From: Roseateles oligotrophus
GTDB taxonomy: Bacteria > Pseudomonadota > Gammaproteobacteria > Burkholderiales > Burkholderiaceae_C
Length of the DNA: 64,000 nt
Assembly: GCF_014204525.1 (NCBI RefSeq)
Contig: NZ_JACHLP010000007.1
Location: 248,001-312,000, forward strand
Reading direction: 5' to 3'
Positions 12,506-63,782 of the stretch are shown piece by piece; the first letter of the stretch is position 1; every line of letters starts with the position of its first letter. A program made the position numbers and the translations under genes. The notes beneath the pieces are model-generated. The model was not told the DNA's origin. It did no database searches and worked only from the letters and a program-made list of their open reading frames with translations.

Positions 12506-12559
12506 GGCATCGGGCTCCGGATGAGATTGAGTGTTTCATCCGGTATGCCCCGCAGCGGG

Positions 12560-12572: not shown

Positions 12573-12592
12573 TGCGGTGCGCGCCAATCCGC

Positions 12593-18808: not shown

Positions 18809-18857
18809 GGTGCTGCCCTCAAAAGTCGTTCGCCGGGCCGCCCCAAGAACGACGGTA

Positions 18858-18885
18858 CCCCCTCGGGGGGCCTGGCAAAGCCAGG
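18858..18885. repeat. Paired GC-rich hairpins between DUF3649 and PepSY genes
   Basis: CCCCC-TC-GGGGG (18858-18869) is followed at once by the perfect hairpin CCTGGC-AAA-GCCAGG (18871-18885). Such C-run/G-run pairs are frequent in intergenic DNA of Comamonadaceae and relatives. No T-run follows, so it may stabilise or attenuate the transcript rather than end it. Confidence 0.6.
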
Positions 18886-18896
18886 GTTGGGGGCGC

Positions 18897-41658: not shown

Positions 41659-42282
41659 TCAGCCATGGCGATGGAAATTAGCCACCACCCTGCTCAGGAA
41701 GAAGGCGCAGGAAACCGGCAGCATGGCCAGCAGCGCAGGGGCAATGGTGATCGGGGTTACGGCCGCGACGATGCTTGCACACGCCATCAGAACGAAGGCG
41801 CTGGCGTGGAGGGCGAACCACTCCGGATCGTGCGGCTTGAACTGCTTGGCACGCAGAATGCGGACGACGAAGCCGTCGATCGCGGTGGCAATGATGACGA
41901 ATGCCTGCAACGGCAGCCACTCGATCAGCGCAGCGAGCCGGTAGGTCGCAAGTAGCAGCTGGGCATCGATCGAGCGGAAGTAGGTGTTGCCAAAGAAGCG
42001 CTGATTGACCCGAGCCATTTCCTGAGCGACGGCTTCGGCCATGCGGTCCGTGCCGGGCGCTTGTGCCGAGGTTGGTACCGGGCTGGCGGCGCTCAGGGCC
42101 TGGTTCATCGAGAGCGCGCGCTCAAGGATGAGCACTGCGCGCGCCTCGCTCCACGTTGCCGCGTTGAGCTCGTGTTCGCTGTGGATCTGGTTCAGGAAGC
42201 GCTCGGGAGGATTCGCGGCCGGCAGATACAGCACGAAGACCAGCAGCAGGGTCAGGGCCGCGACAGCGATGATGCGGATCAT
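41659..42282 (-). CDS. DUF4400-type ICE membrane protein (TraJ position of SXT)
   Basis: A 207-residue inner-membrane protein with helices at about 3-21, 118-145, 168-186 and 188-200. The pattern MIRIIAVAALTLLLVFVLYLPA, then FFGNTYFRSIDAQLLLATYRL, fits DUF4400 proteins, which follow traD in SXT-like elements. Its role in transfer is unknown. The start at 42282 overlaps the traD stop by 4 bases. The 137-bp gap after it holds the Fur box of fecI5, so this marks the right end of the cargo. Confidence 0.85.
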   Translation of the reverse strand: MIRIIAVAALTLLLVFVLYLPAANPPERFLNQIHSEHELNAATWSEARAVLILERALSMNQALSAASPVPTSAQAPGTDRMAEAVAQEMARVNQRFFGNTYFRSIDAQLLLATYRLAALIEWLPLQAFVIIATAIDGFVVRILRAKQFKPHDPEWFALHASAFVLMACASIVAAVTPITIAPALLAMLPVSCAFFLSRVVANFHRHG

Positions 42283-44186
42283 GCTGCAACCCGATGGCGC
42301 GGCTTCGGGAACGGTGTTTCGGTGTCGAGGATCGGGAAGCGTCCCTTGATGATGCGCCCGCCCGATACCGATGCGAAGTACTGCAGATTCGGCAGCTTGC
42401 CCAGGACATCGGCAGGGATCATTTCCTCGAAGCTCTCCGTGAGCTGTGTGGAGTGACTGGCGGAGAAATCGCCCAGATGAGCGTCCGCACCATGGCTCAG
42501 GCCCACCCGCAGCGTATGGATCGCGGTTTTGCCGAAGGTTTCGACCACGAAGTCCTGTGTCGGCCGATCCTTGGAACGGAGCGCGATCAGGTTGTTGAGG
42601 TTGCCCAGGGCCATGCGGGCGGCGTCCTCGCTGCCCAGACGCTTGGCCAGGTCGGCCAGCGTCTGCATGGCGCAGGTGGTGTAGATGCCGCCCTCGGCCC
42701 CCTTGTTGAGGATCTCGATCAAGGGCTGGTTGATGACGTTGCTGACCTCGTCGACGAACAGCGAGATCCGCCGGTACCCGCCCAGGTTGTAGCGCATGCC
42801 GGCGCGGGCGGCGAGGTCGGCGAGGGCCAGAGCGCCAATGGCGGAGGCGACCGAGGGGTCGGGCAGGGAGTCCAGGCACATGTACAAGACATGCCCGGCG
42901 CGCTCGATCTTCTCGAAGTTCATGATGGCCCGCTTGTCCGCCGGGTCGAACGGATCGGGGCTCAGGCTGCGGCCCAGATCGCCGGAGGTCAGCATCGAGA
43001 GGATGGGCAGCAGGTTGGCCGTGATCTTCTGGTAGTGCTCCCGGTTGTGCCGGAAGACCCGGACCTGGGAATCGATGACCTTGCTGCGCTGGCTCTGGGG
43101 AACGTGATGCTCGTAGAAGGCGACGAAGGCCATGAGGTCGGCGCTGGCCGCTTCCGAAGGGCGCTTCAGGTTGCCGCGGTGCGCCTCGTGGAGCAGGCGC
43201 TTCATCTCGGGGTGCTCGCGCCAACCGTCGCGGAACTCCGCGCCGTAGAAGCGCCGCAGGGACTGTTCGAGGACCGGCTCGATGCCGCCTTCGATATAGC
43301 GGGTCAGCTTGGCCAGGCTCGGACGTTCTTCGAGGTCCACGAGACCCTGCACCACGACGTTGACCGCGTCCCACGAGAAGGCACCGAAGGCCCCGGCTGT
43401 ATCCGGCGGAAGGATGGACTGGATTCGCGAGGCGAGTTCAGTCGGCTTCTGCCAGTTGAAGGCGAAGTCGAGTCTCACCCCAGTCTCGGGAAAGGCGGGG
43501 TGGAATTCCAGGAAGGTGTCGGCCTCCCGATAGCGCTCACAGGCGCGAATGGCGGCACGCTTGAGCCGACGGCTGTTCTTCGGGTCGATGACGATGACGA
43601 CGTCGCCGCGACGGACGGCTTGGGTGACAAGATTGGATAATGCGACGCCCTTGCCCGCCTGTGTGGTGCCCACCAGGAGCGTTCCCCCCTCGAAGTTCTG
43701 CAGCGGCCGGTAGAGCGGGCGCTCGCGGGGCTCGACGCCGTGGATGTAGGGCAGGCCGATCTCGGAGTCCGGCTGGGGAGTGACTTGGTATCCCAATAGG
43801 TTGAGGAGCGCGGGGGATGCCGTATAGCTGCGGTAGTCGATCTTGGCGAGTTCGTACAGGCGCTGCGAGTGCAGGGGTTGCCAGTCGAAGCCGAAGCCCA
43901 GGAACACTTGGTCCGGGTTCCGAGTCAGGCGTTCCTGCTCGGCCGGGCCGATGACCTGCATGGCACGGCCGCTCAAGGCGGCGCGCAGCACCATGATGTG
44001 GGCGGCCTGGGCCGCTCGCCATACGGCCATGAGCAGGCATGCGGCGGCCAGCGGCATCGCGATCCTGATGGGCGCTTGGGCTCGCACGGCCATCGTGACC
44101 GTGGCGAATACGGCCAGCAGCCACATGGCACTGGCGTAGGCCTCGTAGGCCCGGCGCCAAGGCATCTCGTATGCGCGCGCCAGCAT
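42279..44186 (-). CDS. traD: TraD-type coupling ATPase (T4CP, SXT/TOL subfamily)
   Basis: A 635-residue hexameric pump that links the relaxosome to the mating pore. Two N-terminal membrane helices (about 20-36 and 41-57); Walker A GTTQAGKG at 173-180; Walker B near 450 (RISLFVDEVSNVIN); a late motor block with YTTCAMQTLADLAKRLG. Length and order traI-traD-DUF4400 match SXT-like ICEs. One base separates it from the TraI-like stop. Confidence 0.94.
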   Translation of the reverse strand: MLARAYEMPWRRAYEAYASAMWLLAVFATVTMAVRAQAPIRIAMPLAAACLLMAVWRAAQAAHIMVLRAALSGRAMQVIGPAEQERLTRNPDQVFLGFGFDWQPLHSQRLYELAKIDYRSYTASPALLNLLGYQVTPQPDSEIGLPYIHGVEPRERPLYRPLQNFEGGTLLVGTTQAGKGVALSNLVTQAVRRGDVVIVIDPKNSRRLKRAAIRACERYREADTFLEFHPAFPETGVRLDFAFNWQKPTELASRIQSILPPDTAGAFGAFSWDAVNVVVQGLVDLEERPSLAKLTRYIEGGIEPVLEQSLRRFYGAEFRDGWREHPEMKRLLHEAHRGNLKRPSEAASADLMAFVAFYEHHVPQSQRSKVIDSQVRVFRHNREHYQKITANLLPILSMLTSGDLGRSLSPDPFDPADKRAIMNFEKIERAGHVLYMCLDSLPDPSVASAIGALALADLAARAGMRYNLGGYRRISLFVDEVSNVINQPLIEILNKGAEGGIYTTCAMQTLADLAKRLGSEDAARMALGNLNNLIALRSKDRPTQDFVVETFGKTAIHTLRVGLSHGADAHLGDFSASHSTQLTESFEEMIPADVLGKLPNLQYFASVSGGRIIKGRFPILDTETPFPKPRHRVAA

Positions 44187-44187
44187 G

Positions 44188-45960
44188 TCAGACAGCTTCC
44201 TTCTGCTGACTCGGCAGGCCGATCACGTGCCGTTTGTCGATCAGGACGCCGACAACCTCCTGTCCCTGGAAATGCCGGGAGATCGGCGACGGCTCCGCGA
44301 GCATACCGACCTCGCTCAGGGAGCGCGTCGCGGCAGGCGGGGCTACTTTGCGTGCAGTCAGCGCAGCCAGAGGAACGAACAGTCCGTCGTCGGTAGGCTT
44401 TGCCGCCCACTCGGCTTCGGGTTCCGACAGCGTTGCAACGATTGCCGCCAGCGCATCGCGGACTGTGACAGGGAGGCGAAGGGGCGCGAGCAGCCTGGCT
44501 TGCTGTGGCTCGTCTGGGCGAGGGGTGATCGGCGTGGGCGTGGGTGCTTCGTCCGCTGGTGCGGCAGGCGGCGGGTCGAGCAGGGCCAGTTGCTGGGGAT
44601 GTTGCGGGGAGGGCGCTTCGGGAACTTGAGAGATCGATGGCGGGCTGGCACGCCGGCGCTTCCTGCTGCTTCCTTTGGCGCTGTCATCGGCGCTTGGTGT
44701 GGTCAGAAGCGCTGGCTTGGTCGAGACGGCCGGCGCAACGGCTGCCGCATCCGCCGTCGGTGGCGTCAGCAGCGGATTGGTGAAGGCTTCCGGCAGTTTG
44801 TCCGACTCCGTGAAGAGCATCGCCGGGGCGCTGAGCTTGACGGCCTCCAGCGCGGGCTTGTTGCCTGGCGGATGGATGAGCCAGGTTGCCTTCCCATCTT
44901 CCTGTGCGGTCAGCACACCGGCCGTGAGCAGAACTTCGAGGATGGTTTCGGGCGCCTTGGGAATGCCGGGAAGCTGGTCGGCTTCGAGCAGCTTGCGAAT
45001 ATCGTCGGCACTGCCGGGCCACACCATGAACATCCCGTCCGGGCCATGCCAGACACGAGACTTCTCCGCGTTCGGGGTCCAGCCGGGATTGGAAGCCGCC
45101 AGGCGCCGCAGCGCATCGACGAGATAGCGTTCCAGGTGCGACCCCAGTTGGGGCTTGCCATAGCGTTCGGCGCTGGCCAGAAGGAAACGATCGATCACCA
45201 GCGCCAGGGCGCGGCGGACCAGGGATTCCAGCACGTTGTGGTCGCGGTAGATCGGGGTGCCGGCAACCGCCGCGAGCAGGTGCGGGACGATCTGGGTGTT
45301 TCCCGTGGCGAGATCCTGCAGGGTTTCCGCGGATACCACGTGCGGCAAGGCGAAGAGGCCCAGCGAGCGGCTTTCTACGGCGTTGGGGCGCCACTTCAGG
45401 AAATAGCGCTTGATCTGGTGGTGACGGAGCCAGCCGGTCAAGGGCCGAAGGTAGGGAGCCCATTCGTTGCCGGCTTCGTCGGTGACGATGACATGGCTCA
45501 GTGGGCGGTGCAACTCGCAACACAATCCGCCGACAAAGGTGGCCAGGCGCCAGCGCGGTTCGAGGTTGCGACGCTCGGTGATCGTCGCCCGCCCGGAAAA
45601 GATGTGGGCATCGGTGCCTTGCAGCGCGAAGAAGGCGGTTTCGAGGCCGATGCGCAGAAGGCCGCCAGGCTCATTGAAGTAGTTGTCCGCCGTGCAGGGG
45701 AGCAGATGCACGTAGGCGGCATACCGGCGCAGCAGGGGGAGGATCGTCTGGTCGAAGCTGGCGCGATCCATGCCGAAGCACAGCTTGATCCGGTCGATGA
45801 GTTCCTGGTGCGCCGCGAGCAGGGCGTCCACGTCGAGGTCAGGAATGCCCGGGTCGACCGAGGGATAGCGAAACTCGGTCGAAAGCGCCTGTGCCCCAGG
45901 CGGCGAACTGTTTGTGGCGACACCCATCTCGCGGTACCTGATCCGGATCGATGGGCGCAT
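44188..45960 (-). CDS. traI: TraI (MobH relaxase)-like protein with lost HD metal motifs
   Basis: A 590-residue protein of the TraI_2/MobH type by position and by the N-terminal block (YVHLLP 83-88, GGLLRIGLE 99-107, ERRNLEPRWRLA 129-140, then RYFLKWR). In the MobH proteins I know, this block has HHH after LLP, a His in RHGLE and an HD pair in LLHDIGK. Here the matching places read NYF, RIGLE and CCELHR, so the usual metal ligands are absent. A disordered Pro/Ala region (about 385-500) and a C-terminal MobH-like DNA-binding domain follow. Start 45960; a second Met at 45927 is possible. Confidence 0.8.
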   Translation of the reverse strand: MRPSIRIRYREMGVATNSSPPGAQALSTEFRYPSVDPGIPDLDVDALLAAHQELIDRIKLCFGMDRASFDQTILPLLRRYAAYVHLLPCTADNYFNEPGGLLRIGLETAFFALQGTDAHIFSGRATITERRNLEPRWRLATFVGGLCCELHRPLSHVIVTDEAGNEWAPYLRPLTGWLRHHQIKRYFLKWRPNAVESRSLGLFALPHVVSAETLQDLATGNTQIVPHLLAAVAGTPIYRDHNVLESLVRRALALVIDRFLLASAERYGKPQLGSHLERYLVDALRRLAASNPGWTPNAEKSRVWHGPDGMFMVWPGSADDIRKLLEADQLPGIPKAPETILEVLLTAGVLTAQEDGKATWLIHPPGNKPALEAVKLSAPAMLFTESDKLPEAFTNPLLTPPTADAAAVAPAVSTKPALLTTPSADDSAKGSSRKRRRASPPSISQVPEAPSPQHPQQLALLDPPPAAPADEAPTPTPITPRPDEPQQARLLAPLRLPVTVRDALAAIVATLSEPEAEWAAKPTDDGLFVPLAALTARKVAPPAATRSLSEVGMLAEPSPISRHFQGQEVVGVLIDKRHVIGLPSQQKEAV

Positions 45961-46005
45961 CGTGCGTGTCGGCGCCCGACCCGTCCAGCTGGAATTGGCC
46001 CCGGA

Positions 46006-50824: not shown

Positions 50825-50843
50825 GAGCCCCACGCGGGGGCTC
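50825..50843. repeat. GC-rich hairpin downstream of the maintenance-like cluster
   Basis: GAGCCCC-ACGCG-GGGGCTC, a perfect 7-bp stem, in the 98-bp gap between the converging MocR gene and the 50853-51569 gene. CCCCACG and CGTGGGG form an overlapping alternative pairing, so two folds compete. No T-run follows on either strand. First of the series seen up to 57.5 kb. Confidence 0.7.
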
Positions 50844-50852
50844 ACGTGGGGG

Positions 50853-51569
50853 TCATTCATCACCGTACAGCGTCAACCCTTCCAGTATCGGGGCATCGGC
50901 ATCGAACACCAGCATGCGCGCGTCGGCGACCGCAGCCAGGTGCAGCACCTCGACCAGGGATTCCGGCATGCCTTTGTTGCGATGCTCCTGTCGCAACTGC
51001 TCTGCTGTGATACCTTCGATTGGTTGCAGGTTCGCATCCGTCCAGGGGGTGGCGATCAGCTTCACGCCGATCGCGGGGCTGTACGGGATGCGGAAGGCGA
51101 CGAACAGAAAGCCGCTCGGTGTGGCGATGTCCGCCAGTTCGGCGAGGAAACGACCCGCCTCGGCGGTGAGATGGACGCTGCTGATCTCCCAGCACCGGCT
51201 GTAGAAGCCCGTCTCGAAGCTCAGTCGCCGCACCACTTCCCGCGCGGCCTCCTCCGAGTAGGTGTCGCCGACGTGCACGGGCTGACCGGAGTCGTCGCCG
51301 CTGACGGCATAGACCACGGTGCGCACCACGCCCTCGGTCTGGCATTGGGCGTCCAGGTCTTCTGGAATGTCCTGGCCTTCGGTGATCAGGGCGAAGTCGT
51401 TGTTGAAGACGCAGGGAAAGAGCGCAATCTGGTCATTGGGCAGATGCGCCTGGCTGGGATGCAGCGGGCGCCAGACCGGAGGGCAGTCGTCCTCGTAGGT
51501 GATGCACAAGGTGCGGTCGATGCGCAGGTTCTGGTAGCCGCGGAGGAAAGGGTTGGAATCAGGGTGCAT
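50853..51569 (-). CDS. Unknown 238-residue ICE protein
   Basis: A soluble acidic protein of unknown function. Visible blocks are FETGFYSRCWEISSVHLTAEAGRFLAEL-like helix pairs and GFLFVAFRIPYSPAIGVKL. No signal, membrane segment or nucleotide motif. It is the last gene of the minus-strand cluster that runs with DUF932, primase and GHKL ATPase genes, so a part in ICE maintenance is plausible by context only. Confidence 0.7.
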   Translation of the reverse strand: MHPDSNPFLRGYQNLRIDRTLCITYEDDCPPVWRPLHPSQAHLPNDQIALFPCVFNNDFALITEGQDIPEDLDAQCQTEGVVRTVVYAVSGDDSGQPVHVGDTYSEEAAREVVRRLSFETGFYSRCWEISSVHLTAEAGRFLAELADIATPSGFLFVAFRIPYSPAIGVKLIATPWTDANLQPIEGITAEQLRQEHRNKGMPESLVEVLHLAAVADARMLVFDADAPILEGLTLYGDE

Positions 51570-51602
51570 GGGGTTTCTCCATCAGAGGAAGTGGAGCCAG
51601 TT

Positions 51603-51748
51603 CCCCGGCTGGGGAGCAAGCTCCGTGGTTGAAGAGATGTTGAGAACGGCGAGGGACACGGCCTCGAATGGAGGCGCATGTGTCCCTCGTGGGTGGAAAT
51701 AGGAACGGGTGGCGAACAAGCGGGCCGGCGTCTCCTGGTGCGCCGGCC
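51603..51748. repeat. Hairpin array 1 (between DUF932 and the 238-residue gene)
   Basis: The 189-bp gap holds CCCC-GGCT-GGGG (51603-51614), GGAGC-AA-GCTCC (51613-51624), a nested pair with outer arms GAGGGACAC (51651-51659) / GTGTCCCTC (51680-51688) and inner arms GCCTC/GAGGC (51661-51675), and GGCCGGCG (51723-51730) / CGCCGGCC (51741-51748). All arms are perfect. No gene is seen. Confidence 0.8.
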
Positions 51749-51758
51749 ATTCACCGGA

Positions 51759-52817
51759 TCAAACCGCTTCGGCCAACCCCTTCCACTCGCGGCTGGACAG
51801 TTCGACGAGCTTGCCGCCCAGCGCCTCGAATTCGGTGGCGCGGTCGTAGTCGCCCACCTCCTGGCTGTAGTGCGTCACGGCGTTGACGAGCCCGTATCCG
51901 GAGAGGTCGCCACCCGTGATCAGGTGACGCAGCACGCCATCCCCTTCCGCTTCGGTCAGCGTGTAGCGCTGGCGCAGCACCTCGACCGTTTTCACGGGGC
52001 TACCCGTAAGCTCAATGCCCATCGTCGTCTGCATCTTCGCTGCAACCTGCAGGAAGGTGGCTTCGGACAGGGCGGACTGAACCACATCGCGGACCTGCAG
52101 GAAGAAGGCACGGTCATCTGCCTGGAGCGTGTCGTCCTGGAAGATCGTCACCGAGTCATCGCTGCCGAGCGCACGGCCCAGGTGAGTCTTGCGCAGCGAC
52201 TGGTCGACGGCGATCAGCCCGTTGCTGCATACCAGCCGGAAGACCAGCGGCTGGACCGTGAGGGTGCCGTGGCCGACTTCGGAGTTCGAGATGACGATGC
52301 CGGCCTGGACCACATCGCCGACACGCATCTCGTACTGCAGGCGCGGCAGGATGTACTTGAGGTACATCTTCGTCTCGGTGAGCTCGGCCGACTCGACACG
52401 GCCGTCCAGATGACCGAGGATCGGCAGCACGTGCTCGGCGAGATCGTAGTTGTCGAGCCGCCGATAGCGATCCGAGAGCACTGCGCGCACCCGTCCATCG
52501 AGGGTGCGCAGCATGTGGCGATCGCCTTCCTGCTCCAGCCACGTGTTGACGTTGCGATCAAGCAGCGTTGGTTGCTCGGTGCGCATGCGCTCGAAATACG
52601 CCAGCGGGATCCGCAGCTTGTCCGCGAGCTGTCGGCGGGCGAGCGGTGTCACGTCATACCGACGCGGCGATTCGGGCTCTTCGACGACCAGTTCGGTCTC
52701 GCCGTCTTCCCGCGTCGTGTGATGGATGAGGGAAGAGGGCAGGACCAGGTCGCGCTTGCTGAGGCGCTGGCGATCGAGTTCCTGGGCCAGGCTTTGGAGA
52801 GAACGTCCGCTTTTCAT
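51759..52817 (-). CDS. DUF932-family protein
   Basis: A 352-residue protein of the phage/plasmid DUF932 family. Typical marks: YDVTPLARRQLADKLRIPLAYFERM, VRAVLSDRYRRLDNYDLAEHVLPIL, and GHGTLTVQPLVFRLVCSNGLI. The biochemical role of the family is not settled; it travels with ICEs, plasmids and phages. The ATG at 52817 has GGAG 7 bases upstream. Hairpin arrays flank it on both sides. Confidence 0.9.
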   Translation of the reverse strand: MKSGRSLQSLAQELDRQRLSKRDLVLPSSLIHHTTREDGETELVVEEPESPRRYDVTPLARRQLADKLRIPLAYFERMRTEQPTLLDRNVNTWLEQEGDRHMLRTLDGRVRAVLSDRYRRLDNYDLAEHVLPILGHLDGRVESAELTETKMYLKYILPRLQYEMRVGDVVQAGIVISNSEVGHGTLTVQPLVFRLVCSNGLIAVDQSLRKTHLGRALGSDDSVTIFQDDTLQADDRAFFLQVRDVVQSALSEATFLQVAAKMQTTMGIELTGSPVKTVEVLRQRYTLTEAEGDGVLRHLITGGDLSGYGLVNAVTHYSQEVGDYDRATEFEALGGKLVELSSREWKGLAEAV

Positions 52818-52826
52818 GTGAATCTC

Positions 52827-53084
52827 CTTTTCGGAAATGAAAAGCGGGGACGGCATGACCCTTACGGGGATGCGCATCCCCGCCAGGGTTGATGAAGGCC
52901 GGCCAATTGGCCGACCCGGATTCGGCGCGAACGTGTCGCGCGTGGGCTTCGAGGCTGCCTTGGCGACGCCCAGGGGCGTGGCAGGTATGGCAGCTACCAG
53001 GGGAGCGAGGCTCCCGGAGAAAACCTTTTCGCTGGCACCGTGTGCAGGTGCCACTGAAAAGGCGGTGCAGCCTGTGGCTGCACC
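52827..53084. repeat. Hairpin array 2 (between primase and DUF932), the densest in the window
   Basis: Nine perfect inverted repeats fill a 289-bp gap: CTTTTC/GAAAAG (52827-52844), CGGGGATGCGCATCCCCG (52865-52882), GGCCAATTGGCC (52901-52912), ACGCCC/GGGCGT (52966-52979), GGTA/TACC (52984-52998), GGGAGC/GCTCCC (53001-53015), GAAAA/TTTTC (53019-53030), GGCACC/GGTGCC (53034-53052) and GGTGCAGC/GCTGCACC (53064-53084). No gene is seen here. Confidence 0.85.
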
Positions 53085-53106
53085 TCTCTCAATGCGATCA
53101 ATCTCT

Positions 53107-54120
53107 CTATGCGGCTTGCCGCATCTGGGCCTGCCAACGCCGGAACCAGATGTCCGACCAGTCGACCCCGGGCCACTTCGGTACGAAGACCTGGACCTGT
53201 CGCCGGATACCTCCTTTTTCCTCTCTCTTGAGGCGGCGCGCGAGGGCGAAAGCGAAGGCTTGTCCCGCGAAATCGCCATCAGCATCGTTGTCGGCATAGA
53301 TCGAGACCTTGGTCACCGTGTCGGGAATCCAGATCTTCTCGAGGTTCCCGGCGCTGAGCGCAGCCCAGGCCGGCTTGCCGGTGCGCAGGTGCACCGCGAG
53401 GCTTTTCTCGATGCCCTCCGTGAGCGCCAGTTCGTCCGTCGCCCCGAAAAGCCGCACGGCCGCACCGATGATGCCCGAGGTGAGCACTTTCTTGGCATCG
53501 TTGGCCGCGAGCTTGCGCCCTTCGGGCAGATAGGTCCGATGCAGCGACACGATGTTGCCCTCCGGCCCCTGGATGCTGGCGAGCATCGCGGGGTACTCGG
53601 CAATCTTGCGCGACTTGCCACCCTCGTCCTTCTCGTAGTACCCGAGCTTCGGGTGAAAACGCAGTACCGACGGGTAGCGATCGAGGACCAGGCCCCGAGA
53701 CCTCAGGTAGCGGTCCACGACGTCGCCATGGATGATGGGCTGGGCTTCGTTCCAGATGCGCTGGACAAGCTTCTTCATGCGATCCGGCGATGGTTCGTTG
53801 CCGGCAGCCTGCAGGGGCCGCGGGTACGAACCAAAGTACTGCTCGGCCGCCTCCAGGACGCGGTTGAAGTCCATCCCGGTCACCTGCTGCGCGAGCTGGA
53901 AGCCGCCACCAGGGCCACAGTTGCGGCAGTGGTAGTTGCCCTCGCCGTACTTGTCGGTGAACTGGAAGCGGTCCGTGCCGCCGCAGAAGGGGCAGGGCAG
54001 GTTCAGGCGCTTCCTGATCATTCGGGGATCCAGGCCCAGGTGCAGCAGGAACTCAGGCCAGCGTCCGTGGGCGCGGGCCTTCATGTCGTCGATGCGACGT
54101 TGATACTCTTCCTTGGTCAT
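53107..54120 (-). CDS. Zinc-ribbon/Toprim DNA primase of mobile-element type
   Basis: A 337-residue primase-like protein. The N-terminal zinc ribbon is complete (C43, C46, C65, C68 in LPCPFCGGTDRF and YHCRNCG). A DnaG/P4-type middle (about 110-190) is followed by a Toprim domain (about 195-285) with ELALTEGIEKSLAVH and VSIYADNDADGDFAG, the acidic metal-binding motif. No helicase domain is fused. It could prime the transferred strand in the recipient. The ATG at 54120 has GGAGG at 6 bases. Confidence 0.9.
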   Translation of the reverse strand: MTKEEYQRRIDDMKARAHGRWPEFLLHLGLDPRMIRKRLNLPCPFCGGTDRFQFTDKYGEGNYHCRNCGPGGGFQLAQQVTGMDFNRVLEAAEQYFGSYPRPLQAAGNEPSPDRMKKLVQRIWNEAQPIIHGDVVDRYLRSRGLVLDRYPSVLRFHPKLGYYEKDEGGKSRKIAEYPAMLASIQGPEGNIVSLHRTYLPEGRKLAANDAKKVLTSGIIGAAVRLFGATDELALTEGIEKSLAVHLRTGKPAWAALSAGNLEKIWIPDTVTKVSIYADNDADGDFAGQAFAFALARRLKREEKGGIRRQVQVFVPKWPGVDWSDIWFRRWQAQMRQAA

Positions 54121-54134
54121 GATGACCTCCAAGA

Positions 54135-54282
54135 CGAGCCCCCTGGGCAAGGCCTGCCGATTTGGGCGAGGCTCGGATGCGATACAGGGGACGGGGCGCG
54201 TCCGGTGGAAGCCGGACGCACGGGTTGAAATGGAGCCGGGTGTGGCTCGGGTGAATACCGCGGCTGACGAAGCCAGCCGCGG
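54135..54282. repeat. Hairpin array 3 (between GHKL ATPase and primase)
   Basis: Perfect arms: CGAGCC (54135-54140) / GGCTCG (54170-54175), GCGTCCGG (54198-54205) / CCGGACGC (54212-54219), GAGCC/GGCTC (54233-54248), CCGCGGCT (54258-54265) / AGCCGCGG (54275-54282). They fill most of the 168-bp gap, in which no gene is seen. Confidence 0.82.
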
Positions 54283-54288
54283 CGGACA

Positions 54289-55890
54289 TCACTCGATCAG
54301 GCTGATCTCGTGGCTACCGGCGTCGATGCCGATCTGCACGCGGAAGCTGAGGCCGCGCAGCAGCGGGTACCGCTCGGATCGCGCGTCGCTGATCAGCGAG
54401 CGCATGGCCTCCTCCGGGTCGGCCATGCGCAAGCGGCGGATGAGATCCGCGAGCGCGCCGACATCGGCGTTCATGTCGGATTCGTGGAAGCGATCATGGC
54501 CGTCGTAGTAGGACGCGCACTGGCGTACCGCACGACCGCTGCGCTCCCCGGCAGGGATGTACAGCGTGCCGTCGTGGTAGAGGCCGTCCTCGGAGAACGT
54601 TGCCTCCACGTCGCCCATGCAGACGGTGACTTCCTCGCACAGAATCACGTGTGCCGAGATCCAGCTGCCATCGAGGTAGGAGCGCTGATGCTCATGGGTG
54701 ACCCGGATCGACACGTCTTCCTTGTTCAGGTCGCGGACGGTCGGATGGATCCAATGGCCCGCATCGAGATCATCCGAGGCCATGACGACATAGCCCTTGG
54801 CCCGGGCCAGCATCCATTTTGCGGCGTTTTGCCCATCCGGCCAGTCGAGCCTGACCAGTTGAAACCGTCCGCTCTCGATATCCTGTCGGGGCAGGGCGTG
54901 CACCGGGTGCTCCAGAAAGTCCAGATGCGGCGTCAGGGTCCGCTGCGGGTACCCCTTGATGCGCTCGCAGACCTGCCTCGGGATCAGCTCGATGTCATTG
55001 AGCAGTTCCAGATGCCGGTGGTGGCGCATCACGTTGAAGAAGTCCTCGATGAGCTCTGCTGCGGCCATCTGCGCCTTGCGAACGAGCAGCGTGTCGCGCC
55101 AGGTCTGGCGGATTTGCTGCCGGATCTTCGTTTCCTGCACGTCGGCGTCGATCAGGGTGTCCCGGTCGGGCAGACGCGCGAAAAAGACCTTCGAATCGAG
55201 ATGCACGACGTTCGGCGTCTCGTTGATCGACAGGTAGTTCGGCAGGAACATCACGCGAAAGCCCTGCAGATACACATCGACGGACAGCGAATGCTGCCCG
55301 CTGTGCGTCCCGACGAGGTGGACCGAACCAAGCGGCGTCTCGACGCTGCTCAAGCGATAGGGAGCGCGGGGCCGGTCGATGGGCCGGCCGTTGAATTCCA
55401 CCTGCACGGGGAACCCCATGCACAGGGTAGCCAGCCGCGAATCGAGATCAGGGAGTTCCACGCCTTCGAGTTCGATGATGGTTCCCATCTCCGGTCCGTA
55501 GTCGGTTTCCTCGACCGGGATTTCAGACCGCGCCAGGGCCGCCGCCGTGTCGAAGGCGATCTGCCTGCCCCGCGAGATGACGGTGCAGCGGCTCGCGGCA
55601 TAGAGGCAGCGGGAGAACCCGGCGCCGAAAGGATGCTCCTCGGCGCGCAGCGCTTCGCCCCAACCGGACTCATTGAAGGCCAGCAGCTTGCCGAAGTCGT
55701 CGATGCCGTGCCCGTTGTCGCGCACCCGCAGGGTACGGGAGACGGGGTCGTGGCTGACTTCGATCAAGGTCGCGCCGGCGCGGCGCGCGTTCTGCAGCAG
55801 TTCCGTGACCAGCGTGAACCGGTCGCTGAAGGCGAAGCGCTGGTTGCGCAACGTGCCTTCTTCATTGATGCGGACTTGGACGGTGTCCAT
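54289..55890 (-). CDS. GHKL (HSP90/MutL-like) ATPase of unknown role
   Basis: A 533-residue protein with an N-terminal GHKL ATPase domain: N-box ELLQNARRAGA (30-40), D58NGHG, and GAGF (89-92), then IIELEGVELP. The rest (about 230-533) has no recognised family but is rich in His/Asp and has FHESDMNADVGALADLI near the end. GHKL proteins act in chromosome structure, repair or signalling; in this setting DNA handling of the ICE is a guess. Hairpin arrays lie on both sides. Confidence 0.82.
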   Translation of the reverse strand: MDTVQVRINEEGTLRNQRFAFSDRFTLVTELLQNARRAGATLIEVSHDPVSRTLRVRDNGHGIDDFGKLLAFNESGWGEALRAEEHPFGAGFSRCLYAASRCTVISRGRQIAFDTAAALARSEIPVEETDYGPEMGTIIELEGVELPDLDSRLATLCMGFPVQVEFNGRPIDRPRAPYRLSSVETPLGSVHLVGTHSGQHSLSVDVYLQGFRVMFLPNYLSINETPNVVHLDSKVFFARLPDRDTLIDADVQETKIRQQIRQTWRDTLLVRKAQMAAAELIEDFFNVMRHHRHLELLNDIELIPRQVCERIKGYPQRTLTPHLDFLEHPVHALPRQDIESGRFQLVRLDWPDGQNAAKWMLARAKGYVVMASDDLDAGHWIHPTVRDLNKEDVSIRVTHEHQRSYLDGSWISAHVILCEEVTVCMGDVEATFSEDGLYHDGTLYIPAGERSGRAVRQCASYYDGHDRFHESDMNADVGALADLIRRLRMADPEEAMRSLISDARSERYPLLRGLSFRVQIGIDAGSHEISLIE

Positions 55891-55911
55891 GACATGCTCC
55901 TGTGAAGTGCA

Positions 55912-55949
55912 TGCGGGCCCGCACCCATCGCGGGAGGGCCCGCGATGGG
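55912..55949. repeat. Hairpin array 4 (upstream of the GHKL gene's downstream neighbour)
   Basis: TGCGGGCCCGCA (55912-55923) is a 12-base palindrome, followed directly by CCCATCGCGGG (55924-55934) / CCCGCGATGGG (55939-55949), a perfect 11-bp stem with a 4-base loop, the strongest in the cluster. It lies in the 73-bp gap between the 107-residue gene and the GHKL gene. Confidence 0.85.
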
Positions 55950-55963
55950 GAAACGAAGAAGCG

Positions 55964-56287
55964 TCAGTGCCTGGTCTGCACTGGCGCGGTGTAGAGCTGG
56001 CCCGCCATCAGGGCCTCGACGACGCTGTGCGTCGCGAAGTCATGAGGGGGCAGGTGCTGCGTGTCGATGACGGCGCCGGTGCTGTCCAGGCGCTCGACCT
56101 CGATGACCATGGGGTGCCAGCGCACCCGGTAGGTCAGTTTGTCGGCGCCGGAGATCACGAAGATGCGGCCGGCCTGGCCGGTGAGCACTTCGCTTTCCTT
56201 GATGAGGAACTCGATCTCCGCAAGCCCGCGCACGCGCATCAGGTGTGCCGCACGGGGTTCCGAGCGCTTCTGTGAGTCCATGTACAT
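55964..56287 (-). CDS. Unknown 107-residue soluble protein
   Basis: A short protein with an alternating hydrophobic pattern (about 20-90: VRGLAEIEFLIKESEVL, RIFVISGADKLTYRVRW) that suggests a small beta-rich fold. No family recognised. It is 9 bases from the small membrane protein upstream and has no hairpin on that side, so these two form one unit inside the cluster. Confidence 0.62.
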   Translation of the reverse strand: MYMDSQKRSEPRAAHLMRVRGLAEIEFLIKESEVLTGQAGRIFVISGADKLTYRVRWHPMVIEVERLDSTGAVIDTQHLPPHDFATHSVVEALMAGQLYTAPVQTRH

Positions 56288-56296
56288 GAGAGCCTC

Positions 56297-56539
56297 CTAT
56301 AGGCGGGATGTCGGGCAGTCACGGGCGATCACGGCTTGCACCAACGGGTCGTGGGTTGCCGCAGCCGCTGTATCTGCGCGTTTCGGAGTCGTGGCCGACG
56401 CACATGAAGCCTCTTGTTCGAGGCGCCTCGTGCGCATGAACTCTTCGTGCCGCACGGCATCGTCGTAGTCCATGCGGCCGACGATCCCGTAGGCGGCCAG
56501 GACCGTCAGCAGGATCAGGATGTCTTTGAGCGTCACCAT
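56297..56539 (-). CDS. Unknown small membrane protein (80 residues)
   Basis: One N-terminal membrane helix (about 5-21, DILILLTVLAAYGIVG) and a charged tail with EEFMRTRRLEQEA. No family recognised. The ATG at 56539 has a GGAGA site 6 bases upstream, which decides the start against the longer frame to 56695. Confidence 0.62.
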   Translation of the reverse strand: MVTLKDILILLTVLAAYGIVGRMDYDDAVRHEEFMRTRRLEQEASCASATTPKRADTAAAATHDPLVQAVIARDCPTSRL

Positions 56540-56562
56540 GACGTCTCCTTGGAAACGGAAGA

Positions 56563-56580
56563 GGGAGCGTGCGTGCTCCC
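56563..56580. repeat. Hairpin 5 (GGGAGC/GCTCCC)
   Basis: GGGAGC (56563-56568) - GTGCGT - GCTCCC (56575-56580), in the 68-bp gap upstream of the small membrane gene. The same arms occur at 53001-53015 and within 57341-57359. Confidence 0.75.
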
Positions 56581-56607
56581 CGGTGAATGGATGCATGGAT
56601 ACGTATG

Positions 56608-57168
56608 TCATGCGAACAGGTCGCCCAGCACGTTCTGGCGCCTGAGCTGCTCGTTGATCCATTGCGGGTTCTTGCTCAGGCGGTCCGATGCCCACTGCGG
56701 GTTGTGCGAGATCGCCTCGCGAACCCAGGCGGGATAGCGGTCGAGCGTTTCGCGCAACCAGCGCCGGACGTAGCCCCGCAGCAGGTCACGGACGTCGTTC
56801 ACGTCCAGGCGGCCGAAGTAGGGGTAGGTCGACATCGGGCTGCACCCCGCCACCTGCAGGCAGCTCGCGAAAGAGAAGGGCTGTCCGTCCTTGTCCGGAT
56901 CCGTGAAGACCCAGCGCAAGGTGTCGAACTTCTCCTCGAGCGGCGTGCCGGGGTCGGCCAGGGCAGCGAGGTCGTCCAGCAGCAGGCAGTGCAGCCGGAC
57001 CACGTCCTCTTCGCTCCATTCGATGGGCGGCGCTTCGTCGCTTTCGTCGAGTTGGCGCTGAACCGATTGCGGGTCGGGTGCGGTATCCGCGACACGGGGA
57101 AATCGCCGCGGCGGAAATCCCATGTGGCCCGCACGGAGAGAAACAGGCTGAAGGTTGGAATCGGGCAT
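56608..57168 (-). CDS. Unknown 186-residue protein with NPQW repeats
   Basis: A soluble protein of unknown family. A short repeat occurs near the C-terminus: ISHNPQWASDRLSKNPQW (about 152-170). An acidic middle (WSEEDVVRLHCLLLDDLAAL) is helical. The start at 57168 (MPDSNLQ) has GGAGG about 5 bases upstream; the longer frame to 57414 runs through the hairpin-rich leader and is not coding. First gene of the minus-strand cluster. Confidence 0.68.
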   Translation of the reverse strand: MPDSNLQPVSLRAGHMGFPPRRFPRVADTAPDPQSVQRQLDESDEAPPIEWSEEDVVRLHCLLLDDLAALADPGTPLEEKFDTLRWVFTDPDKDGQPFSFASCLQVAGCSPMSTYPYFGRLDVNDVRDLLRGYVRRWLRETLDRYPAWVREAISHNPQWASDRLSKNPQWINEQLRRQNVLGDLFA

Positions 57169-57208
57169 CGTGGCCTCCGGAAGGAAACGCGGGGCACGAC
57201 GCGTCCGA

Positions 57209-57435
57209 GCGGGGCGTGTGCCCCGCAGGGTGAGAATGGGCCGTTGCGTGTGGGCGTTGGCCGGTGATGACGAGACTGGCTTGTGGCGGACGATCCGCCG
57301 GACGGTATGCCAGCTACCGCAGGGAAGATTGCTTTCGGCACGGGAGCGAAAGGCTCCCGCCTCGAAAGCAGGGTCCAAAGCGGAGCTCAGCCACCACGCG
57401 GAGAAGGGTGGCACGTGGAATCGCGGACGCGATTC
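57209..57435. repeat. Hairpin array 6 in the divergent leader region
   Basis: The 474-bp gap 57169-57642 has no gene but carries GCGGGGC-GTGT-GCCCCGC (57209-57226), CGGTA/TACCG (57303-57319), CGGGAGC-GAAAG-GCTCCCG (57341-57359) and GAATCGC-GGAC-GCGATTC (57418-57435), all perfect. GGTATGCCAGCTACC here repeats GGTATGGCAGCTACC of array 2, each followed by the GGGAGC hairpin. From 57490 the DNA should hold the promoters of the divergent genes. Confidence 0.8.
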
Positions 57436-57642
57436 GCTCGGAACGCGGGGCTTGCCGACGAGATGCGCAGGGCCAGCTACTGCATGCGGTAACGATAGTG
57501 ACCGGCGCCAGGGCGGTCAATCCCACCTGATGCGAAGTCCACCTCGTGATGGCAAATTCGGGCGGTTTGGGCGGGATATTCGGATGGAGTTCCGGTCGCC
57601 ATGCGAGGAACATCGGCCTCGGTTCGATAGTGGAGAGCTCCG

Positions 57643-58449
57643 ATGGCGGCAAGCAAATCCGAAATGCAGATCGTCAAGATCGACGAGGGCGCAGTCAATG
57701 CGCGCATCCTGGCGCGCGAGTCCAAGGCGGACTTCCGGCGAGTCGAGGCAGCCAGCATCAAGGTGCTGGCCCGTTTCACGAGCGCCGAGGGCAAGCGCCT
57801 GTTCGTGCGCTTCTTCAGCACCCTGCAGCTCAATGCGCACTTCATTTCCGTGATCGCCCGTACCCGATTGGAGTCGGCCGACGTGGCGAAGGTGGAGGAG
57901 GCCATCAAGTCCAGGATCGATGGTGTCGCCACGAACCTCAATCAGGCCATCGACGGCGCTGAGGCTCTGTTCAAGGCGAACGGCATCACCAGCGCCGCCA
58001 CCTACGACACCAGGCCGCTGGAGATCGAGGTGGGGATCATTTCGTCGACCGGAAGGCGGTATCTCGAGCTGATCGCCAAGCTCGACCAACTGATGCCGCT
58101 CCTGCAGACACTGGAGATCCACGAGGTCATCAACACCCAGGTCCTGGACCAGCAGCGGGCATCCTTGAAGCGCCAGGTTCGGGATGTCGCCAACTCGGCG
58201 CGTAGCCTGGCGTCGGGTCTGCGGCGGCGGATGAATGCCCTGGCTGCGGCAGCAGGTTCTGCCGCGAGGGGCCAAGACGCCACCGGTGATGCCCGCGAGG
58301 GATCCGAGGAGCCTCACAACAATGGCTTGGTCGAGGTATCGCTCGTAGGCGCAGAGGCTGTTGCCAGCCCCGCAGCGGAGTACCTCGGAGAGGCTCGCGA
58401 CGAACCCTCCACGGATGGGCCGGCGACGAATGCCGGAGATCCGGACTGA
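57643..58449 (+). CDS. Conserved ICE protein, possibly DUF1845/AcaB-like
   Basis: A 268-residue soluble helical protein. The core (about 85-200), with ATNLNQAIDGAEALFKANGIT, RPLEIEVGIISSTGRRYLEL and QLMPLLQTLEIHEVI, recalls ICE-family DUF1845 proteins; AcaB of IncC plasmids, a transfer activator, is a member of that group. I recall this family only roughly, so the name is tentative. The C-terminal 60 residues are disordered and acidic. Single plus-strand gene divergent from the maintenance-like cluster. Confidence 0.55.
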   Translation: MAASKSEMQIVKIDEGAVNARILARESKADFRRVEAASIKVLARFTSAEGKRLFVRFFSTLQLNAHFISVIARTRLESADVAKVEEAIKSRIDGVATNLNQAIDGAEALFKANGITSAATYDTRPLEIEVGIISSTGRRYLELIAKLDQLMPLLQTLEIHEVINTQVLDQQRASLKRQVRDVANSARSLASGLRRRMNALAAAAGSAARGQDATGDAREGSEEPHNNGLVEVSLVGAEAVASPAAEYLGEARDEPSTDGPATNAGDPD

Positions 58450-61996: not shown

Positions 61997-63280
61997 TTAC
62001 TGGCCCGCGAGCACCACGGCAGGATCAAGCTCAAACCCTGGGTAGTTGAATGCGCCGGCCAGTTTGTCGCAGTCGGCGAGCGTCGCGCCTTGCTGTCGCA
62101 GGGTCGCATGCCAGCGTGAGGCCACCACTTGCTGAAGCTGGTCGACGATGGCCGTTGCGTGTTCGAGGGAGAGCTTGAACTGCCCATGCTGCGAGACCAG
62201 GTTGGCGCGGTTCGCGTAGCGGTTGAAGGTCCCGCAGGTCATGGCGAGATCCCGCTTTTCGGCGCTGGTCAGCGGGTTGGGCGTCAGGTCGTACGCAGGC
62301 GACAGTTCCCACTTGTCCGTTGTGGCGATCAAGGCATGGTTGCGCGGATGGTCGTCGGTGTTCGAGATGAGGGCGTTGAACACCATGCGCCGAAACAGCT
62401 CTTCGAGGTCTTGTGCCGATCGCGCACTTCGCCGCCGCAGTTCGTCGGCCAGCAGCAGGTACGACCACTTGGCCCGGTCTCCATGCGAGTCCTCGGCACC
62501 CAGCGCGGTCAGGCCGCTGACCATGCGGTGGCGCAGGTATCCGTCGGCGGTCAGCGTGCGGTCGAAGCGCTGCACAAGCAGCACGTCCTTGCCGGCGACG
62601 GTCTCGATGCGGTGTCTTGCCGCGCGCAGACCGCATTCCTGTGCCAGAGCGAGCATCGCGCCTTCGACACGGGCGTTGTTCCATTTATCGCCCCGGTCCG
62701 GGAACTTGGCGAGCCAGAGGCCCTCGCCATCTTCGACCACGTTCTTGGGGCGGGCGCCGCCCATCGAGGTGCCGGGTTGCAGGAGCTCGAGCATCTGCTC
62801 GGGCACGCCAGCCTTGCCCGCAGCCTCATCCTCCAGGAACTGTTCGGCCGCCGCAAGCAGGGCCGGCAGTTGGATGACCGGGTTGAACTTGCGGACTGGC
62901 GCGGGGGGCACCTTGTCGCGGCCGAAGGACAGGGCGCCCGCGCGGTCCTCAGGCGAGTGCAGGAGATAGTCGACCTCGGTGAGGTCGGTGCGTCCGGTGT
63001 GCTTTTCGATGATGCGGCGCCCCCAGGCATCGGGCGAGGCGTCGCGCAGAGGGCCGAAGATGCCCTTGAGCTTGACCGTCTGAGCGCGGCGCGGCGTCAG
63101 CGGCAGCTCGTACGGATCCAGCGGGACGGCGTCGGCGCGCTGCAGATAGGCCGGGTTGTAGACGAACGAGCCGGTCGGCACCCCCTGCGGGAAATCCAGC
63201 TCGTAGAACCCCGCCGTCACGACCTCCAATGACTGGGGCAACTGGAGGTAGACGTAGGCACGCCGGTCAGAACTCGTCAT
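61997..63280 (-). CDS. hipA: HipA-family serine/threonine kinase toxin
   Basis: A 427-residue HipA-type kinase. N-terminal subdomain with GSFVYNPAYL; then GTSMGGARPKNVV, the kinase loop FNALISNTDDHPRNHALI with catalytic Asp/Asn, and the metal loop SPAYDLTPNP. HipA phosphorylates a tRNA synthetase and causes dormancy. It overlaps hipB by 14 bases, in the order hipB then hipA. Full length for the family. Confidence 0.93.
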   Translation of the reverse strand: MTSSDRRAYVYLQLPQSLEVVTAGFYELDFPQGVPTGSFVYNPAYLQRADAVPLDPYELPLTPRRAQTVKLKGIFGPLRDASPDAWGRRIIEKHTGRTDLTEVDYLLHSPEDRAGALSFGRDKVPPAPVRKFNPVIQLPALLAAAEQFLEDEAAGKAGVPEQMLELLQPGTSMGGARPKNVVEDGEGLWLAKFPDRGDKWNNARVEGAMLALAQECGLRAARHRIETVAGKDVLLVQRFDRTLTADGYLRHRMVSGLTALGAEDSHGDRAKWSYLLLADELRRRSARSAQDLEELFRRMVFNALISNTDDHPRNHALIATTDKWELSPAYDLTPNPLTSAEKRDLAMTCGTFNRYANRANLVSQHGQFKLSLEHATAIVDQLQQVVASRWHATLRQQGATLADCDKLAGAFNYPGFELDPAVVLAGQ

Positions 63281-63611
63281 CGAGTCGCTCCTTGCGGTGG
63301 CGAACCCGCTGCGGCAGGCGCGTGAGTTCCAGTTGCTTGCCTTCCTCGTCGCGCTCAGGGTCGGCAAACGCCTGGATCTCGGATTCCAGGCCCATGGCCC
63401 AGAGCATGGCCAGGTAGGCCCCCAGGCCGGTTTGCAGGTTGCCGGCTTCCACGGCACGCGCAGTGTCGTAGCTGATGCCCGCCTTGGCCGCCAGCTCGCG
63501 CAGGGTCAGCCGACGGCGCTTGCGGGCCATCGTCAGCCGTTCGCCGATGCGCAGGGCACCATCCCTCACGGCAAACGGCGCGGTCTGATTCAGCTGAAGG
63601 GGGCGGGGCAT
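63267..63611 (-). CDS. hipB: HipB-type antitoxin/repressor
   Basis: A 114-residue Xre-type helix-turn-helix protein (about 20-80: IGERLTMARKRRRLTLRELAAKAGIS, TARAVEAGNL). It should bind HipA and repress the operon through CTGAAA-type sites upstream. The ATG at 63611 (MPRPLQL) is used; upstream in-frame DNA holds the operators. Confidence 0.9.
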   Translation of the reverse strand: MPRPLQLNQTAPFAVRDGALRIGERLTMARKRRRLTLRELAAKAGISYDTARAVEAGNLQTGLGAYLAMLWAMGLESEIQAFADPERDEEGKQLELTRLPQRVRHRKERLDDEF

Positions 63612-63622
63612 GTTGAATTCGT

Positions 63623-63726
63623 CTGAAATCGATATAGAGTTGGTTTCAGCATACTTTTCATGGGCTCGTGAGTCAAGCCTGTGTAGACTGAAACAGCTCC
63701 GATCCTGTTTAGAGACGGTTTCAGTC
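63623..63726. promoter_or_regulatory. hipBA operators: two CTGAAA/TTTCAG inverted repeats
   Basis: Repeat 1: CTGAAA (63623-63628) / TTTCAG (63644-63649). Repeat 2: GACTGAAAC (63686-63694) / GTTTCAGTC (63718-63726), perfect 9-bp arms with 23 bases between. Four half-sites upstream of hipB fit a multi-dimer HipB operator. Confidence 0.65.
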
Positions 63727-63782
63727 GTTCTGTTTGTGTAGGTTGTCGTCTTCCAAATATGCCGCCGAAGTTCCAACCTCAA

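Follow-up and report, generated by a model that had tools for sequence, protein, structure and literature searches.

In this study we analysed a window of 64,000 nucleotides from the 5.34-Mb genome of Roseateles oligotrophus (contig NZ_JACHLP010000007.1, positions 248,001 to 312,000), in which a minus-strand gene cluster at 50.8-57.5 kb, lettered A to G in order of transcription, carries inverted repeats in its intergenic gaps. Comparison with related loci suggests that the repeats lying before gene A and before gene F, which encodes a DUF932 protein, are 5' leader RNAs that act in cis on translation, and that they form a diverged branch of Rfam's DUF3085 RNA (RF02959), a reading that we consider probable. 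The features brought out by the comparison are a conserved place, a pseudoknot, folding of the sense strand, a promoter-like start and alternative pairings of the ribosome-binding site.

The initial annotation had described a recurring module of two hairpins. The recurrence is real (GGTATG-G-CAGCTACC from 52984 and GGTATG-C-CAGCTACC from 57304), but what had been read as its first hairpin is P1 of a pseudoknot, the partner strand of which had been overlooked, and GGGAGC/GCTCCC, proposed as the second half, lies outside the conserved unit: it is kept in the close relative L037 but was not seen in the gaps between genes E and F of L038, L042 and L046. On the minus strand the P1 loop GCUGnC is complementary to GnCAGC lying past a second hairpin, P2. 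At the variable loop place the A leaders have G where the F leaders have C or T, and in the partner strand C where the F leaders have G or A. One base separates P1 from the 6-bp loop helix, which we take to be the classical geometry of an H-type pseudoknot. On this comparative evidence the module is an H-type pseudoknot, present in the 5' leader of gene A and again in that of gene F, with the following predicted cores (scores refer to the covariance model R1, described below):

52954-53000, minus strand: F pseudoknot core, with P1 GGTA/TACC (52984-52998), loop GCTGCC, P2 ACGCC/GGCGT and partner GGCAGC (52954-52959); 54.7 bits.
57275-57320, minus strand: A pseudoknot core, with P1 core CGGT/ACCG, loop GCTGGC, P2 GGCGGA/TCCGCC and partner GCCAGT; 34.5 bits.

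Of 299 genomes of the family, 34 contained relatives of the primase-like protein encoded by gene E, many of these being weak matches, and 17 loci were extracted; from a DUF932 alignment scan of genome contigs the best 80 of 178 relatives were kept. Including the window, 98 loci were compared, six of which are doubled (L039/L088, L040/L074, L041/L085, L044/L093, L047/L120 and L053/L134); counts of distinct or unique sequences omit identical ones, while locus counts do not. A scanner requiring pairing gave 139 hits. Discarding identical sequences, those truncated at the end of a locus and a single loop type left 110 rows, and removing five judged to be chance (window 2592 and 13557, L054 251, L074 18766, L123 20945) left 105. 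Pair scores in these 105 hand-collected cores far exceed those of shuffles and slid controls, evidence that is biased because the scanner had chosen the rows by their pairing. In a set anchored on sequence, 74 of 87 distinct F leaders and 46 of 71 distinct A leaders yielded both halves (the anchors failed in 13 and 25, respectively), and 119 of these 120 leaders are fully paired, against a mean of 51.1 and a maximum of 69 in 5000 permutations; as the anchors fix four of the six pairs, this test rests on two pairs.

The covariance model R1 was built from the 105 cores with P1 included and without the pseudoknot pairs. It gave 164 matches at E ≤ 1e-5 in 100 sources, of which 150 were aligned and 122 are distinct. 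The pseudoknot helix is complete in 115 of the 122 distinct matches, with 99.0% of cells paired, and each of the seven remaining rows lacks exactly one pair. The variable pair is GC in 46 rows, UA in 40, CG in 31, UG in two, AU in one and unpaired in two, and the third pair, otherwise fixed as UA, is replaced once by AU (L105) and once, in another row, by CG. Sliding the helix by one to three columns lowers the share of paired cells from 94.3% to 13-50%. P1 likewise covaries, and invariant unpaired bases outside the helices are few. G.U cells in the pseudoknot helix outnumber A.C cells (32 versus 2); read from the opposite strand, each G.U pair would become a mismatch, so it is the sense strand that folds.

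The position of the leaders is conserved as well. Gene F is present in all 98 loci (which is uninformative, as DUF932 was the search query), E in 92, A in 85, D in 66, B in 47 and G in four; in the 17 extracted loci E and F occur in 17, A in 16 and G in one. R1 locates a leader upstream of F in 90 of the 98 loci, and of the 85 loci with A, 65 have one before that gene; two of the eight loci without an R1 leader before F end at a contig edge (L061, L098). The 18 E-F gaps that include the window are otherwise unalike, yet 17 recognisably keep CTGGTnGCTGnCAnACCAGG, a hairpin and AAGnCAGCC, with L049 as the exception. Further copies lie before E in L047 (identical to L120), L048, L124 and L127, the window's own E having no pseudoknot leader, and before a reductase-like open reading frame (ORF) in L051. 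The loops differ according to the gene that follows: GCUGGC in 43 of 46 A leaders, GCUGCC, GCUGUC or GUUGUC in 72 of 74 F leaders, and GCUGAC in both reductase leaders that were read (L051 and L193). In the genome of R. oligotrophus itself only the F and A leaders stand out, the next best R1 match having 17.7 bits. Among 321 genomes of the class, four including this one gave R1 hits; the other three (26-33 bits) lie in surroundings that by eye resemble chromosomal housekeeping genes and were rejected as false positives, and the E-values of R1 are regarded as too optimistic. On a Piscinibacter plasmid R1 copies lie upstream of an adenosylcobalamin-dependent ribonucleotide reductase and of a DUF932 gene, and on a Janthinobacterium plasmid one lies upstream of an A homologue. 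Reductases of this type with a related leader upstream were noted from plasmid annotation at L193 3303-5765 and L203 2267-4753, and in L051 downstream of 12832 on the minus strand (ORF by eye). With the terms tried, our literature searches found no paper on this pseudoknot leader RNA.

The A leader can be followed from a putative promoter to the Shine-Dalgarno sequence:

57515-57520, minus strand: TTGACC, -35 box of the putative promoter of the A leader.
57492-57497, minus strand: TATCGT, -10 box after a 17-nt spacer, the promoter being proposed from the consensus.
57450-57483, minus strand: PK0, a pseudoknot-like unit with a GCAG/CTGC stem, a loop with GCTGGCC and GGCAAGC downstream (6 pairs and one G.A).
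57218-57226, minus strand: strand X of the A leader, GCGGGGCAC.
57209-57215, minus strand: near partner of X, GCCCCGC.
57189-57197, minus strand: far strand GTGCCCCGC, able to pair with X or, via CGTGCC, with the Shine-Dalgarno arm.
57169-57178, minus strand: Shine-Dalgarno arm GGAGGCCACG, before the ATG at 57166-57168.

PK0 has the form GCAGnAGCTGGCCCTGC ... GGCAAGCCCTGGAG and is a smaller unit lying some 140-225 nt upstream of the main pseudoknot, about 160 nt in the window. It is present in 40 of the 41 A leaders tried, all of which had been picked by the pairing scanner, and was not found in L052. All 40 have TTGA just upstream, and TTGAnn-(16-18)-TAnnnT is complete in 39, the exception being L059. 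With these promoter-like boxes just upstream, PK0 probably lies close to where the A transcript begins. The opposite, 3' end of the A leaders holds the Shine-Dalgarno sequence within a predicted hairpin, CGTTGCCTTC/GGAGGCAACG, with the variants GTTGGCTCC/GGAGCCAAC, CGTGACC/GGTCACG and CATTGCC/GGCAATG. The tests of this hairpin used 35 or 34 of the 41 leaders, after those identical to another over their final 45 or 40 nt had been removed. The mean score is 7.36 for a leader's own arms, 6.37 for arms exchanged between loci and 4.77 for shuffled ones (35 leaders), and double changes occur at four pairs, in nine cells compared to 2.8 in shuffles. Strand X and the far strand are matched as GCGGGGCAC:GTGCCCCGC in the window, TGGGGGCTAAC:GTTGGCTCCTG in L046 and CGGGGCAAT:ATTGCCTCG in L051; their own mean score is 6.59 versus 5.90 across loci, and X with its near partner scores 7.01. 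As X resembles the Shine-Dalgarno arm, the far strand has two look-alike partners.

A comparable set of strands is found in the F leader:

53064-53084, minus strand: hairpin HP1, after the primase stop codon and followed by CGCCTTTTC; weakly terminator-like.
53024-53062, minus strand: hairpin HP2, CCTTTTCAG...CGAAAAGG, directly upstream of the pseudoknot; a similar stem is seen by eye in the E-F gaps of several relatives.
52877-52883, minus strand: strand X of the F leader, GCGGGGA.
52865-52870, minus strand: near partner of X, TCCCCG, within an ACCC/GGGT hairpin.
52844-52850, minus strand: TCCCCGC, the far partner of X, with TTTTC next; the Shine-Dalgarno sequence GGAG lies at 52824-52827.
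52803-52808, minus strand: GGA CGT as codons 4-5 of F, with hardly any variation at synonymous sites; GGACG and CGTCC at the far strand are complementary.

For these pairings we used 67 of 71 prepared sequences (L039, L040, L041 and L127 were left out, and L049, in which the core is absent, had been dropped earlier). X and far are paired in 96.7% of cells, the helix of X with its near partner in 84.8%. The conservation extends into the coding sequence: codon 4 of F is GGA in 84 of 85 genes, compared to 101 of 1813 glycine codons in the rest of the gene, and codon 5 is CGT in 75 of 84 arginine codons. The pairing of the far strand with GGACG is treated as a lead only, since it is broken in three loci (L106, L115 and L118) and the neighbouring acaB gene is also rich in early GGA codons. 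We also considered whether the F leaders end in terminators; many have a T-run behind the far arm, but L047, L050 and L053 lack it, and we did not adopt this reading.

From the alternative pairings we infer an exchange in which the pseudoknot is the sensor and one signal serves all copies of an element. In the off state, the near strand would bind X, leaving the far strand free to close the ribosome-binding site; in the on state, X would capture the far strand and the ribosome-binding site would open. The upstream pseudoknot would sense a trigger, which may be a metabolite, an element protein or an RNA, and tip the balance between the two states. With several copies, an element could set its genes for DNA processing jointly: A, DUF932 and in some cases the primase and the B12-dependent ribonucleotide reductase.

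A number of observations weigh against the leader reading or parts of it. R1 was trained on rows from a scanner that required pairing, so that its counts are less biased than those of the hand-collected cores yet not free of bias, and kinship among the sequences inflates all cell counts. Of the 32 G.U cells, 20 fall at one pair and may represent one inherited change. R1 finds no leader before A in 20 of the 85 loci that have this gene; many of the 20 belong to a single lineage (for instance L039, with a weaker match of 23.0 bits). The Shine-Dalgarno helix of the A leaders is broken in 18.8% of cells, and when slid by -1 it reaches a covariation of 0.118 versus 0.101 with equal double changes, although with far fewer paired cells; in the window itself the A leader's own Shine-Dalgarno arm pairs weakly (score 4.8). 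In the F leaders the changes between X and far are mainly one-sided G.U changes, with double changes in three cells and a covariation of 0.172 compared to 0.161 in shuffles. The alternative pairings of the ribosome-binding site are conserved and partly covary, and switching is deduced from pairing alone. A codon bias of start regions may contribute to the early GGA of F, as in the first 12 codons of A to E and acaB GGA accounts for 17 of 119 glycine codons, and 14 of these 17 come from acaB, which contributes 30 glycine codons. As for the relationship to DUF3085 RNA, only two of nine further A leaders matched RF02959 at E ≤ 1 and none of nine F leaders did so, and its gathering score of 40.6 bits was reached by none of our matches, the best having 40.1 (genome G479) and an A-type leader in G475 32.7.

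The assignment to the DUF3085 RNA draws on matches below the cut-off and on the order of conserved motifs. At its cut-offs, Rfam gave no family in the window or in seven relatives. With a low threshold, RF02959 was the only family of relevance: the window's A leader matches it over its full length (1-76) at 57222-57319 on the minus strand with 20.6 bits, as do two of the nine further A leaders (L183 with 27.0 and L186 with 24.2 bits); the leaders tested numbered 20 (nine A, nine F, one reductase and one primase) and came from ten loci of L037-L053. In genomes of the family RF02959 was matched at E ≤ 0.01 in five of 250, none above the cut-off; by eye one of these, L197, is an ordinary A-type leader, and L196, L198 and L199 look like chance matches. 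A search of 274 genomes of the class gave none. One 295-kb contig of G479, which also encodes a distant relative of the primase, has five matches (40.1, 36.6, 34.9, 30.0 and 24.1 bits, the last with an E-value of 0.14), each by eye before a different ORF, all five with CAACCC and three with ACCGGGG next. On the Piscinibacter plasmid RF02959 scores 25.3 bits about 60 bases before an annotated A homologue (54% identity), and an Azonexus plasmid has a stretch like the RF02959 consensus upstream of a small gene and an adenosylcobalamin-dependent ribonucleotide reductase.

DUF3085 RNA and the A leaders share, in the same order and with similar letters, a P1 loop AGCUGG, P2, AA-CCAGC, UUCA(A), a hairpin and CAACCC-nn-CGGG, and by eye the F leaders keep the order of the core. 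They differ from DUF3085 RNA in the pseudoknot of 6 pairs and in the downstream genes, which are A and DUF932; a DUF3085 gene (PF11284) was not found in the R. oligotrophus genome, and the leaders do not lie upstream of one. RF02959 is classed as cis-regulatory in Rfam. We conclude that the A and F leaders and DUF3085 RNA form one superfamily, in which the leaders of the cluster would be a branch beyond the reach of the Rfam model. DUF3085 RNA, which reportedly goes back to Weinberg 2017 as its likely source, itself seems to be an orphan: our literature searches found no paper on it, and the mention of DUF3085 in PMC12826799 appears to concern the protein.

Several known RNAs resemble the leaders in design. 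preQ1-II and SAM-II are H-type pseudoknot riboswitches in which a hairpin loop pairs downstream and the ribosome-binding site is controlled, preQ1-II having an extra hairpin in its last loop. The leaders share with them the loop-downstream pairing and the proposed control of the ribosome-binding site, and no Rfam match to either was found here. STAXI (RF01728) is described in PMC2864571 as a repeated pseudoknot near DNA-manipulating genes; its copies are in tandem and listed for Enterobacteriales, in contrast to PK0 and the main pseudoknot of the window with their wide spacing, and RF01728 gave no match in the window or the tested leaders. The radC RNA (RF01754), which has a different structure, is a multi-copy structured leader in a similar gene cluster in L152, where copies with 131.7, 118.1 and 92.8 bits lie at 8078-8226, 9586-9738 and 11331-11476 on the minus strand; this cluster contains a DUF3085 gene and, by eye, a DUF5983 homologue of G and a DUF3577-like gene. 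RF01754 gave no match at its gathering score in the window or seven relatives. By eye, the radC leaders of L152 end in a CACCC-GGGG..CCCC unit before the start codon, similar to the pseudoknot leaders. We also noted upstream of DUF5983 a hairpin, GAGGGACA..ATGCG-[inner hairpin]-CC.TGTCCCTC, in both the window (51650-51689, minus strand) and L152 (about 10718-10760, minus strand), the outer stem of which is by eye kept while the inner stem differs.

Two readings concern what the pseudoknot might respond to. The leader may answer to a protein encoded by the element, be it a regulator, DUF932 or the primase, which would bind the pseudoknot and repress its own messages, in the way of ribosomal proteins and without a small-molecule ligand. 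The occurrence of copies in conjugative elements or plasmids of many hosts, the leaders before several genes of one element and the scarcity of invariant unpaired bases outside the helices are all consistent with such a scheme, and although no partner protein was identified among the genes tested in the 98 loci (D and B being present in 66 and 47), we regard it as quite possible, if short of probable. The scarcity of conserved unpaired bases speaks at the same time against a metabolite riboswitch, in which the pseudoknot would be a ligand-binding aptamer, as does the lack of an obvious common pathway among the downstream genes. Related leaders do precede an adenosylcobalamin-dependent ribonucleotide reductase in two plasmids, and a small pseudoknot with alternative pairing of the ribosome-binding site is generally known from established riboswitch classes, but on balance we consider a metabolite aptamer unlikely. 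An element protein seems somewhat likelier as the trigger than a metabolite.

Two further explanations were weighed. According to one, the repeats are ordinary intergenic palindromes, that is, terminators or hairpins for processing or stabilisation that do not switch. Hairpins such as those at 50825-50843 after G and 53064-53084 after the primase gene, as well as the T-rich sequence after the far arm of F, would fit this description; it leaves unexplained that 90 of 98 loci keep the pseudoknot in the F leader, as well as the covariation and the near-fixed GGA CGT codons, and we hold it to be quite improbable. The other holds that the repeats function as single-stranded DNA when the element enters a cell or replicates. 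The Frpo promoter of the F plasmid, which folds in the template strand, is a precedent, and the leaders do sit among DNA-processing genes; here, however, it is the sense strand that folds, and the Shine-Dalgarno pairing and the conservation at synonymous sites point to RNA and translation. The discoverers of STAXI weighed a single-stranded DNA role and then favoured RNA (PMC2864571). The related proposal of the initial annotation, that the hairpins are single-strand signals for the local primase, is likewise disfavoured by the strand that folds, by the promoter-like sequence before the A leader and by the leaders ending at ribosome-binding sites, and we judge a single-stranded DNA role very improbable. 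Its two other suggestions, that the hairpins stabilise cistrons or act as beacons for proteins, may still apply. A cis-acting leader RNA remains our preferred interpretation of the repeats before A and F.

The density of hairpins from which the initial annotation had started is less distinctive than the pseudoknot. The inverted repeats in the gaps are present as described. We measured the share of bases in perfect arms of at least 6 bp with loops of 3-25, using as controls 50 first-order Markov shuffles and 141 host gaps, each 60-600 bp long, in 20 stretches of the R. oligotrophus genome, with genes called by a codon-usage script. Taken together, the seven gaps of the cluster have an arm fraction of 0.221, compared to 0.067 in shuffles (standard deviation 0.023, maximum 0.111) and a mean of 0.116 in the host gaps (Mann-Whitney p = 7.6e-4; p = 3.7e-4 against the 89 same-strand host gaps only). 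As a set they exceed the host gaps; individually they lie at the 75th to 94th host percentile, none of them exceptional. The comparison with host gaps, which the initial annotation had named as a possible refutation, is thus withstood by the set but not by every single gap. Nor are dense arrays confined to the cluster, as had been claimed, for the window gaps at 12506-12592 (0.322), 18809-18896 (0.295) and 45832-46005 (0.241) are equally dense. With such gaps elsewhere and a modest enrichment over the host, hairpin density alone is a weak finding. The predicted fold of the sense RNA gives z = -8.1 for the E-F gap and z = -3.2 for the A leader. The statement that no T-runs follow the hairpins is only partly true, since the hairpin at 53064-53084 and the far arm at 52844-52850 are both followed by TTTT on the sense strand. 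The suggestion of a family of structured RNA parts is borne out for the gaps upstream of A and F, where the place is kept, the stems covary and the pseudoknot is kept in relatives; it does not extend to every gap, as the D-E, F-G, C-D and A-B gaps have hairpins and no R1 copies. We leave the remaining hairpins of the cluster (F-G, D-E, C-D, A-B and after G) as ordinary or unassigned.

The genes of the cluster and its divergent neighbour are the following:

56608-57168, minus strand: gene A, 186 amino acids, unmatched in Pfam and NCBIfam at E ≤ 0.001; first gene downstream of the A leader.
56297-56539, minus strand: gene B.
55964-56287, minus strand: gene C.
54289-55890, minus strand: gene D, 533 amino acids, ATPase-like; HATPase_c_3 with 22.6 bits, under the Pfam cut-off of 25.
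53107-54123, minus strand: gene E, primase-like, with Zn_Ribbon_Prim, DUF7146 and Toprim_3.
51759-52817, minus strand: gene F, DUF932 protein of 352 amino acids (Pfam PF06067).
50853-51569, minus strand: gene G, DUF5983.
57643-58449, divergent to the cluster: AcaB-like gene, match under the Pfam cut-off.

The ATPase-like protein D, used as a query against viral contigs, gave no relatives. The window also encodes a MobH relaxase (44188-45960) and an SXT-type TraD (42279-44186), both above their cut-offs, and a TraB-like protein (3875-5272) with a score under its cut-off, and the element looks conjugative. Near the transfer genes lie four TonB-dependent siderophore receptors (10070-12505, 19636-22170, 23527-26103 and 30689-33124, minus strand; TIGR01783 above cut-off). 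A HipA-like gene (Pfam HipA_C) overlaps an HTH-like gene that scores below cut-off (61997-63457 and 63267-63782, minus strand), resembling a toxin-antitoxin pair. In L055, just beyond the window, a protein of 1718 amino acids (1248-6404, minus strand) with weak, sub-cut-off matches to phospholipase-D type and DISARM DrmD anti-phage proteins is a possible defence gene.

The comparison turns what had been vague GC-rich hairpins into a defined RNA family with covariation, a place in the leaders of conjugative elements, a likely mechanism and named relatives. A broader proposal, which we put forward as doubtful but worth stating, is that conjugative elements and large plasmids of Betaproteobacteria carry an RNA regulon of their own, in which one pseudoknot switch with mostly gene-specific loops stands before unrelated DNA-processing genes and answers to one signal of the life cycle, with DUF3085 RNA as one corner of it. 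Should the proposed switch exist, it would provide a handle on the timing of the element's DNA-processing genes, and a ligand or protein to seek.

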